From the NCBI GenBank assembly GCA_949283655.1, contig CASDTH010000036.1, positions 1-37,905 of the forward strand: a stretch of 37,905 nucleotides of DNA. The letters are read 5' to 3'. The notes under the pieces were generated by a model that saw only the letters and a list, made by a program, of their open reading frames with translations, ran no database searches and had not been told where the DNA came from. Both the position numbers and the translations under genes were made by a program. Positions 1 through 37,288 of this stretch are shown in pieces; position 1 is the stretch's first letter, and each line of letters begins with the position of its first letter. The DNA comes from an uncultured bacterium (GTDB lineage Bacteria; Bacillota; Clostridia; Oscillospirales; Acutalibacteraceae).

Positions 1-76
1 CTGCCGTGCCCGAGAACGCAGCGAGCGCCCGCCTGAGCCTGCCGGGCGGCGCTGCTTCCCCCTGTACGCCGATGCT
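1..76 (+). repeat. Repeat C, partial copy cut by the window edge
   Basis: This segment aligns with the reverse complement of 31522-31602. The shared core reads CCCGAGAACGCAG, then one variable base, then GAGCGCCCGC, followed by a short GCCGG/CGGCG-type palindrome and a CTGTA/TTGTA-type end. Only the 3' part of the element is present; the rest would lie left of position 1. It contains no convincing ORF. The function and family name are unknown to me. That the two copies are related is seen directly in the sequence. Confidence 0.7.
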
Positions 77-117
77 GGTTCTCTTGTCAGCCGACAAGAG
101 AATGAGGTCGCGTACAG
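62..117. other. Nested inverted repeat (long hairpin)
   Basis: The inner stem TTCTCTTGTC (79-88) pairs perfectly with GACAAGAGAA (93-102) around the loop AGCC. The outer stem CTGTACG (62-68) pairs perfectly with CGTACAG (111-117). There is no T-tract, so a Rho-independent terminator is unlikely. It abuts the end of repeat C and is absent from the other repeat C copy. It could be a mobile-element end or an RNA fold. Confidence 0.6.
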
Positions 118-180
118 CGAAACCTGGCACTCATTAAAAGTTAAAATCAAACCTCATGGCCGCGCCACAAACAACATGAT

Positions 181-400
181 TTATTTTCCCGCTCGGGCCG
201 CGGGGGCCCATCCTTTTCCCTTCGTCGGAAAAGGATGCAAAAGGACGTTGATAAACGGCACTGCGGCGGCGGTTTATAAATTAGCCACACCACAGCGCGT
301 TCGGCGAACGCTTCCCGAACTCACCGCCTCACGGCGGCTCAAACATGCGGGAAGGTTCGCTTTTTGCCCTTCGGGCCAAAAAGTCCCCTCACGTGCACGC
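181..400 (-). repeat. Repeat module A, copy 1 (candidate structured RNA)
   Basis: This is a diverged duplicate of 36694-36910, in the same orientation. Shared blocks include TTTTCCCGCTC, GGCCGCGG, GCAAAAGG and AAGTCCCCTCACG. Three hairpins occupy matching positions: 209-219 with 227-237 (11 bp), CCGCC 324-328 with GGCGG 333-337, and 360-369 with 373-383. Read on minus, the middle hairpin has a GTGA loop, a GNRA tetraloop in RNA, which is invariant between copies while its stem changes. A short reading frame can be opened on plus (176-406), but it is not conserved in copy 2. No known RNA family is assigned. Confidence 0.65.
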
Positions 401-412
401 ATTTAGTGGCAT

Positions 413-562
413 CAGTTGCCGCCTGGGCCTATCGTTACGCCTGAGGCGTTAAACCACTTGCAGGTTAGATTCACGTTCGGGCGGGTCAAGACCCAACCCT
501 ACACATCTCTCCGGTAGGGTCGAGTCTTGACTCGACCGCCCAGCGGGGCCTTCAGTCTATCT
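413..562 (+). repeat. Repeat module B, copy 1
   Basis: This segment shares TGCCGCCTGGGCCTATC (417-433) and GGGGCCTTCAGTCT (545-558) with the opposite strand of 36967-37046. A hairpin, ACGCC 437-441 / GGCGT 445-449, sits where the other copy has CCGC/GCGG. Relative to module A this copy is inverted compared with copy 2. A long hairpin at 479-541 sits between the two conserved ends and appears to be an insertion. Confidence 0.6.
479..541. repeat. REP/MITE-like long hairpin inside module B
   Basis: The arms are GGGCGGGTC (479-487), AAGAC (488-492) and ACCCTAC (496-502). They pair in order with GTAGGGT (514-520), GTCTT (524-528) and GACCGCCC (534-541), with small bulges. The long, slightly imperfect pairing without a T-tract resembles a REP-type or MITE-type palindrome more than a terminator. 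The matching place in the other module B copy lacks it. Confidence 0.5.
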
Positions 563-36693: not shown

Positions 36694-36910
36694 ATATTTT
36701 CCCGCTCAGGCCGCGGAGGCCCCTCCTTTTCCGTTCGGCCGGAAAAGGAGGCAAAAGGGGCCGTTCTGCACGGTCAACGGCGGCACTGGTATGTTTTGGA
36801 ATCTCTTTGATGTGTTCGGCAAGCCACCCAAAAACTCGGCCACTCACGTGGCCTCAAACATTTTGGGTGTTTGCTTGCCTGCAAGCAGGCAAGTCCCCTC
36901 ACGAGCCCGC
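36694..36910 (-). repeat. Repeat module A, copy 2 (candidate structured RNA)
   Basis: This is a diverged duplicate of 181-400. Matching hairpins are 36722-36732 with 36741-36751 (11 bp), GGCCAC 36838-36843 with GTGGCC 36848-36853 around the invariant loop TCAC (GTGA on minus), and CTTGCCTGC 36874-36882 with GCAGGCAAG 36885-36893. Stem bases differ from copy 1 yet still pair. The element lies upstream of the greA promoter on the same strand. A 68-codon frame (36641-36847) crosses it but does not continue in copy 1. Confidence 0.65.
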
Positions 36911-36966
36911 CGGAAGTGTACGGAGCCTACCGCCGCTGGCCTACTGAAAGGCTCTGCCTCCGCGCC

Positions 36967-37046
36967 AGACTGAAGGCCCCGGAAGGTTTCTCCCGGAGTC
37001 TATAAGCGGTTCGGAGCCGCAAGCGGAAGGATAGGCCCAGGCGGCA
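36967..37046 (-). repeat. Repeat module B, copy 2
   Basis: On minus this matches module B at 413-562: TGCCGCCTGGGCCTATC (37046-37030), a CCGC/GCGG hairpin (37017-37026) where copy 1 has ACGCC/GGCGT, and GGGGCCTTCAGTCT (36980-36967). It lacks the long hairpin found in copy 1. Confidence 0.6.
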
Positions 37047-37288
37047 GTTAGAGATTGGACGGCAGATATTTTTAAGATGATAGATGAGAGAACCGCTAGA
37101 CTTTCCCTCAAAGGCGAAAGGCTAACACATGATTATTGACCATCCATTTGATGTATCATATTCCGGTATGGCAGCTTAAATTTGGGGGCTGATTTAGGTT
37201 TGAGCGTAGGGGCAGAGTTTTCATTTGACGCCTCGAATCCCTTAGTCCGCACCTTTTATTATCTAGATCCATAAAAGGAGGAAAAGCA
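37047..37288. other. Spacer upstream of the 55-aa gene
   Basis: This is the rest of the 730-nt gene-free stretch between greA and the small membrane protein. A weak promoter candidate on plus, TTGACC (37136-37141) and TATTCC (37159-37164) at 17-nt spacing, is the only signal seen. Confidence 0.3.

Follow-up and report, generated by a model that had tools for sequence, protein, structure and literature searches.

What kind of element is the hairpin-rich module that occurs near either end of the stretch of DNA analysed here (hereafter the window), a contig of 37,905 nt (C36) from a 2.59 Mb genome in 50 contigs? The original prediction described three hairpins at positions 181-400 and 36694-36910 and took them for a functional RNA. 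The hairpins and the paired changes between the two copies are all present in the sequence: stem 1 changes from CATCC/GGATG to CCTCC/GGAGG, stem 2 changes from CCGCC/GGCGG to GGCCAC/GTGGCC around TCAC (GUGA on the minus strand), and stem 3 is rebuilt. A repeat, D1, is present in the window at 182-232 and 36695-36745. Both window copies are single arms, and both are read on the minus strand. Their parts and the adjoining modules are as follows.

36695..37049, minus strand: copy 2, a single-arm unit standing alone, made up of spacer part, arm and pyrimidine hairpin and read from 37049 to 36695; sharp repeat-depth edges, 18 aligned copies
36778..36945, minus strand: arm of copy 2, about 170 nt; nhmmer arm profile, E 4.6e-47
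36812..36906, minus strand: arm core of copy 2 (R1/R2), with GTGAGG, stem 3, P2, internal loop and S2 hairpin; 106.1 bits with model R1, the sequence itself being in the R1 training set
36819..36874, minus strand: shared module of copy 2, P2 - UGUUUGA - S2(GUGA) - GAGUU - P2'; 76 bits with model R3, the sequence itself being in the R3 training set
36722..36760, minus strand: pyrimidine hairpin of copy 2 (stem 1 of the original prediction), with a duplicate pyrimidine tract ahead; sequence inspection, hairpin and tract counts
36946..37049, minus strand: spacer part of copy 2, which in complete pairs sits between two outward arms; copy alignment and arm profile
263..432, minus strand: arm of copy 1, class B; nhmmer arm profile, E 1.7e-39
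297..396, minus strand: arm core of copy 1; 94.4 bits with R1, the sequence itself being in the R1 training set
304..359, minus strand: shared module of copy 1, P2 - UGUUUGA - S2(GUGA) - GAGUU - P2'; 60.3 bits with R3, the sequence itself being in the R3 training set
209..247, minus strand: pyrimidine hairpin of copy 1 (stem 1 of the original prediction), with a duplicate pyrimidine tract ahead; sequence inspection, hairpin and tract counts
417..464, minus strand: spacer-side end of copy 1, common to relatives; boundary at 464 in many copies, inverted match of 417-459 to 37004-37046
72..107, no strand assigned: pyrimidine hairpin of a second type, TTCTCTTGTC / GACAAGAGAA, which replaces the 209-247 hairpin in other copies; comparison of copies
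108..180, no strand assigned: repeated flank module with CACTCATT, found beside arms in either orientation; comparison of copies

Next to copy 1, positions 464-540 hold a small inverted-repeat module (GGTCAAGACC.. / GGTCGAGTCTTGACTCGACC) that recurs at other loci of the same genome at a depth of 8-12; its comparison with Rfam gave sub-threshold microRNA matches only. Further along, at 618-656, a strong GC-rich hairpin followed by a T-rich stretch (GGGCGCGTTGCAG..CTGCAACGCGCCC) recurs near other arm clusters (L024, L025) and looks like a duplicated terminator.

Copy number, layout and placement in the genome

The original prediction spoke of two distant copies. Two arms do lie in the window, but the genome holds many: copy searches gave at least 68 and at least 57 matches to the two window copies, with the best 40 of 98 and the best 40 of 91 candidates scored. 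An arm profile run on 155 kb of fetched DNA from the same genome found 77 arm matches on both strands, 66 of them covering at least 80% of the length. The module is thus one arm of a dispersed repeat, predicted to fold, that is present in dozens of copies in its own genome, and chance does not account for it. Throughout this study, between 10 and 150 top candidates were scored in each genome; numbers of copies are therefore minima, and absences are provisional.

In a complete unit, a spacer is flanked by two arms, each about 170 nt long and directed outward, and the two arms of one pair match on opposite strands with approximately 70% identity. Among 20 divergent neighbouring arm pairs, 17 stand back to back at a distance of 85-87 nt and the other three are 73, 133 and 144 nt apart; a further 5 neighbouring pairs are convergent and 3 are tandem. 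Outside the arms, exchangeable modules occur, namely the two kinds of pyrimidine hairpin and the CACTCATT module in either orientation, and the copies are mosaics of these.

Placement was determined using open reading frames (ORFs) as proxies for genes. The arms form 49 clusters, 30 of which reach contig ends, indicating that the repeat probably breaks the assembly. Of the 19 contig-internal clusters, 9 are flanked by convergent ORFs, 8 by tandem and 2 by divergent ones; a single cluster of the 49 overlaps an ORF at least 200 aa long. Since few of the elements sit on long ORFs or between divergent ones, many of them would be co-transcribed with neighbouring messages. The original prediction had argued against a protein-coding repeat, and we likewise ruled this out by the paired changes, by insertions and deletions that do not come in threes, and by the single cluster on a long ORF.

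Predicted fold and covariation

The conserved core of the arm comprises a stem of any sequence (P2), an internal loop UGUYUGA / GAGUU and a terminal hairpin (S2). An alignment of cores from the genome itself (A1) was prepared from the 66 arms by collapsing 8 identical cores and leaving out two more, one because it did not match the cutting pattern and one because of a deletion, resulting in 56 cores of 95-101 nt. These display three main P2 versions, ten listed S2 forms and many stem-3 hairpins. With a class-specific register, 949 of 1008 paired cells are Watson-Crick, 41 are G.T, 15 are A.C and 3 are other combinations; without that register, 71.9% of the P2 cells are paired. The S2 helix is paired in 99.7% of the cells of the 56 distinct cores. 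The terminal loop, which had been described as an invariant GNRA loop, is GUGA in 55 of the 56 cores and so nearly deserves this description within the genome, but relatives carry GAGA, GAA, GAUA, GCA and others. The predicted conserved core is therefore the combination of P2, internal loop and S2, and not the GNRA loop.

Two wider alignments were prepared, both fitted to the structure. In A3, which covers the genome, a sister species and a second genus (57 distinct rows from 40 chosen sources), two-sided changes occur at 18 of 21 pairs, and 95.8% of the cells are paired compared to 69.3% after shuffling and 37.8-51.2% after sliding. In A5, which holds 66 matches across phyla from 53 chosen sources, two-sided changes occur at all 18 pairs and 82.8% of the cells are paired compared to 50.4% after shuffling; the outermost P2 pairs are poor, with 43 of 64 unpaired at the first pair. 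The loop motif is present in 53 of 56 rows of A1 and in 65 of 66 rows of A5, whereas in A4, the source of model R3, sequences were chosen by their loop letters and loop invariance is due to selection. In 166 of 259 distinct loop matches, which come from 117 genomes or contigs, 7 or more of the 9 P2 pairs are of the Watson-Crick type; for cross-genome swaps the figure is 7.2%. Counts of this kind are biased where they come from R3 matches, since R3 scoring rewards P2 pairing. As many of the 259 were chosen by R3, the viral set described below is the cleaner test of P2.

Single-strand folding energies were better than those of shuffled sequences on both strands, with z-scores of -3.9 (minus) and -2.9 (plus) for copy 2, where the minus strand is thus the stronger, and of -5.3 for copy 1 on the minus strand. 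A k-turn was considered for the internal loop and dropped on inspection, since the pairs on either side are incompatible with it. On the outward strand, 17 distinct G.T events stand against 8 A.C events, a difference that is not significant (p = 0.11). This excess leans towards the RNA strand proposed originally, without settling between RNA and single-stranded DNA.

No window match above the gathering threshold was obtained with Rfam 15, and permissive searches remained far below gathering scores. A known RNA family was rejected as an identity for the repeat on these empty searches. A match to a described RNA family had been named in advance as grounds for abandoning the idea of a new one, and none appeared in Rfam 15. 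What stands of the proposed functional non-coding RNA family is an element that is structured, dispersed, apparently non-coding and covarying and that has no Rfam 15 match; the assignment to RNA did not carry over.

Distribution within the family and the order

By DNA similarity, the repeat was found in 2 of 40 genomes, its own and that of a sister species (G001). Covariance models, the check suggested together with the original prediction, extended this by one: model R1 detected the repeat in 3 of 200 genomes, which are the own genome, G001 and G152 from another genus of the family, and model R2 returned the same three among 398 family genomes (10 candidates scored per genome). In the order, R2 matched 1 of 394 genomes, the own genome only (10 candidates scored per genome). 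Both P2 and S2 are rebuilt in the G152 copy, and its loop is GAGA.

These data bear on the explanation that copies are selected as functional RNA elements, the arm acting in transcripts by stabilising or processing message ends or by binding a protein through UGUYUGA/GAGUU. The loop nucleotides are kept while the stems are re-paired, the terminal loop in the own genome is of the GNRA type, G.T outnumbers A.C on the outward strand, and placement is mostly between convergent or tandem ORFs; moreover, the conserved internal loop and the near-constant arm spacing would suit a functional RNA equally well. However, the G.T excess falls short of significance, each genome holds tens of similar copies in both orientations and as mosaics, and most related genomes gave no match with 10 candidates scored in each. 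We consider a functional RNA rather unlikely. Copy number, placement in both orientations and patchy range are more in keeping with a mobile repeat than with a non-coding RNA gene of the ordinary kind.

Matches in other phyla

A first pattern scan gave 17 stretches, 9 from UBA1691 and 8 from elsewhere. One of the 8 (L124) is the record that holds the G152 copy, with the same place and score, and another (L120) belongs to a metagenome-assembled genome (MAG) of the Desulfobacteraceae (G751). R2 found nothing at E ≤ 10 in the stretches L117, L121, L122, L125, L129 and L130, and their pattern matches were accordingly treated as chance. Likewise, nothing was scored with R2 in L132, a single IMG/VR match. 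In the Desulfobacteraceae MAG, one spacer holds three R2 matches (E 1e-7 to 6e-5), only one of which had been selected by the pattern; all three fit the 98-nt arm model, and one has the loop GUGA. Over the whole MAG, R2 gave 48 matches (E ≤ 0.1) and R3 gave 58 (E ≤ 0.01). Beyond the element, several of its copies (e.g. L137, L143, L151, L153, L157) have another hairpin together with the words AAAAAGCTTTTTACGA, which looks like one more dispersed module of the MAG.

Within the phylum of the MAG, R3 matched 42 of 317 sampled genomes, the MAG included, and six genomes besides the MAG have 10-16 copies each (17 candidates scored). In a search of seven genomes that included the MAG and Chryseobacterium herbae, the genome of L130, R3 found two matches in the latter, neither of them inside L130, and none in the other five. 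The MAG and Chryseobacterium carriers belong to phyla that we take to be Desulfobacterota and Bacteroidota, respectively. Common to all phyla are a P2 of any sequence, UGUYUGA, a hairpin and GAGUU. As judged from these sequences, the repeat likely has relatives in two other bacterial phyla, a link that is drawn from a short loop motif and a low-complexity hairpin.

Viral contigs and phages

A sequence-only pattern scan of IMG/VR was performed with the reversed pattern as a control and gave 92 stretches for the pattern compared to 25 for the reversed one. Of the 92, 80 loci were fetched, and 22 of these have a P2 of 10/12 or more; the 58 pattern loci that lack a good P2 were not counted as members. 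When only unique viral flanks were considered, a P2 of 10/12 or more was present in 16 of 45; swapped partners reached this in 169 of 5000 cases and control loci in 0 of 25. In 34 of the 80 fetched loci (e.g. L166, L169), nearly the same sequence surrounds TGTTTGAGCGAAGCGAGTT with no P2 stem; this stretch may be a copy that has decayed, or it may serve as an attachment site. Rfam searches of 12 viral loci returned one tRNA only, and DNA similarity searches of the window unit against phages, of two viral loci against phages and of one viral locus against plasmids gave nothing.

At one place between two phage genes, the motif is present in 14 of 42 related phage loci and was not found in the other 28. 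These related phages carry what we assume to be Haemophilus-like uptake words. Among the 19 phage spacers that were compared, differences extend into the end of the upstream gene, and presence or absence of the motif is therefore not a clean insertion. L321 is an element whose hairpin has been lost. In L333, L337, L345 and L355, the same spacer holds other, unrelated inserts, and the place hence looks like an insertion hot spot.

A second module with a duplicated pyrimidine tract

Downstream of the loop module and on the same strand lies a second hairpin with a pyrimidine-rich 5' arm, which is preceded directly by a duplicate of its own tract. In the examples inspected, this hairpin starts 55-110 nt from the loop module, and once at 210 nt. 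It was counted downstream and upstream, respectively, of 33 and 6 of 41 copies in the own genome, 16 and 5 of 17 viral copies, and 5 and 2 of 28 copies in the phylum of the MAG, where it is weakly enriched; downstream counts were 1 of 3 copies in G001 and 0 of 1 in G152. Chryseobacterium copies did not pass the filter and were left out of this count.

An exact 7-letter duplicate of the tract was found in 27 of 49 cases, compared to 2.6% after shuffling. Direct matches (27) are as common as mirror matches (27). The duplicated tract might fold into a triple strand or into either of two alternative hairpins, and these counts do not distinguish the two options. Dispersed hairpins with a possible triple strand are also known from the BoxC / TM_ECO repeats, which the available part of PMC4666352 describes as dispersed G/C-rich intrastrand triplex repeats in pyrimidine-purine-purine order. 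Those form a CCCTCNCCC-type triplex, whereas the present tract would be pyrimidine-pyrimidine-purine; it also ends a structured arm, and no attached arm is described in that part of the source (PMC4666352).

Could the matches across phyla reflect convergence, in which stable hairpins enclosing a GA-rich internal loop arose repeatedly, the family in the genus being an unrelated local repeat? By eye, little is common between phyla outside the module, stem 3 and the GTGAG segment are missing from some, and the pyrimidine hairpin is of low complexity. Against this stand the two modules that occur in the same order, at similar spacing and on the same strand, the three arm matches in one MAG spacer that fit the 98-nt model, including one with GUGA, when one alone had been selected by pattern, and the excess over the reversed control in IMG/VR. 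Convergence is in our judgement very improbable.

Search for a mobilising enzyme

Two enzyme families, Y1_Tnp and RVT_1, were searched, and neither had a match in the own genome or in that of the sister species. In the phylum of the MAG, Y1_Tnp was present in 35 of 42 carriers compared to 18 of 35 sampled non-carriers (Fisher p = 0.003, kinship and genome size ignored). A copy of the module was found within the fetched flanks at 1 of 40 Y1 loci chosen from the matches listed in other carriers. RVT_1 was absent from G000, G001, G152 and G751 (0 of 4); overall, it occurred in 5 of 14 carriers tested and 2 of 12 non-carriers. Mobilisation by reverse transcription was rejected on its absence from these four genomes. 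No target duplication, clean empty site or autonomous version was seen at the loci inspected in the own genome and in phages.

The association with Y1_Tnp would speak for a system like REP/BIME, mobilised by a REP-associated tyrosine transposase (RAYT) that has since been lost from the own genome. As outlined in the available part of PMC3733652, REP units of 20-40 bp carry GTAG or CGTC tags, are arranged as BIMEs and are associated with RAYTs. The present repeat is similarly intergenic, of high copy number, arranged in inverted pairs and biased towards gene ends. In contrast to REPs as described there, its core measures about 100 nt (95-101 nt in the 56 cores), its arm about 170 nt, and it is untagged and has no Y1_Tnp in its own genome (PMC3733652). 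Within 80 nt of the module, GTAG occurred in 3 of 59 own copies (30.9 expected) and CGTC in 18 of 59 (38.2 expected), and both were at or below expectation near the module in G001, G751 and the phylum loci; in viral loci they were slightly above it (GTAG 18 of 24, 13.8 expected; CGTC 12 of 24, 7.4 expected). No dedicated Y1 gene with flanking copies was found in the own and sister genomes, both rich in copies, or beyond the one instance among the 40 Y1 loci elsewhere, and 7 of the 42 carriers have no Y1_Tnp. Taken together, we regard a lost RAYT system as quite improbable.

Comparison with other repeats

A MITE has terminal inverted repeats that match those of an autonomous element, and a target-site duplication; here, the arms on opposite strands are approximately 70% identical, and neither an autonomous element nor a target duplication was found at the loci inspected. 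Small structured dispersed repeats that are probably non-autonomous include BOX, Correia and bcr1. The present repeat is of the same structured, dispersed type but appears to span phyla, while each of the former is, to our knowledge, confined to one genus or species group.

The nearest described kind, judged by the description of MRSC-65-2 alone, is that of the mobile/repeat sequence candidates (MRSC) of PMC11109978, 250 of which are given in Table 1 of that source. According to the part of PMC11109978 used here, MRSC-65-2 has over 20,000 representatives in diverse phyla, with conserved UYCCGG repeats on a single long stem, and is taken by its authors for a selfish element whose RNA or DNA form they left open; MRSCs are frequently associated with transposase, integrase, nuclease or helicase genes. 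The present repeat has the covarying structure, the many copies per genome and the inconsistent orientation of an MRSC, and it resembles MRSC-65-2 as described there in its strongly covarying long stem, its dozens of copies per genome and its occurrence in diverse phyla; it differs in the UGUYUGA/GAGUU loop and the second, pyrimidine hairpin (PMC11109978). UYCCGG was not clearly enriched, being found in 15 of 59 own copies (8.6 expected) and in 0 of 7, 0 of 13, 5 of 32 (2.6 expected) and 1 of 24 in other sets. The available parts of PMC2267715 and PMC8632094 deal with other repeat families. A search of open-licence PubMed Central with the motif and core words found no description. The kind of element, a selfish structured repeat, is known, and the two-part design was not found described in that collection.

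Proposed nature of the repeat and its implications

We conclude that the copies in the window are members of a dispersed repeat family with a predicted conserved fold and are probably non-autonomous mobile elements, on which a putative enzyme would recognise the folded single strand. The recognition signal would be the fold, which is kept while its letters are swapped in pairs. Copies would multiply in bursts within a genome and would be transferred between lineages, with phages included among the routes, and the mosaics would result from recombination of arms and end modules. More tentatively, and with less confidence than doubt, we propose one ancient, pan-bacterial, two-part selfish family, composed of the UGUYUGA/GAGUU arm and a pyrimidine hairpin capable of forming a triple strand, which would extend over Clostridia, Desulfobacterota, Bacteroidota and phages and would depend on a putative structure-reading mobiliser distinct from both Y1 transposases and reverse transcriptases.

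Should a single family indeed extend across phyla, with its loops preserved and its stems rewritten, its fold must be read by a shared machine, which would point to a new mobilising enzyme or to a new RNA partner. Such a family would also account for unannotated intergenic repeats and for assembly breaks like those in the present genome, and the covariance model R3 would let annotation pipelines mask or track these repeats.
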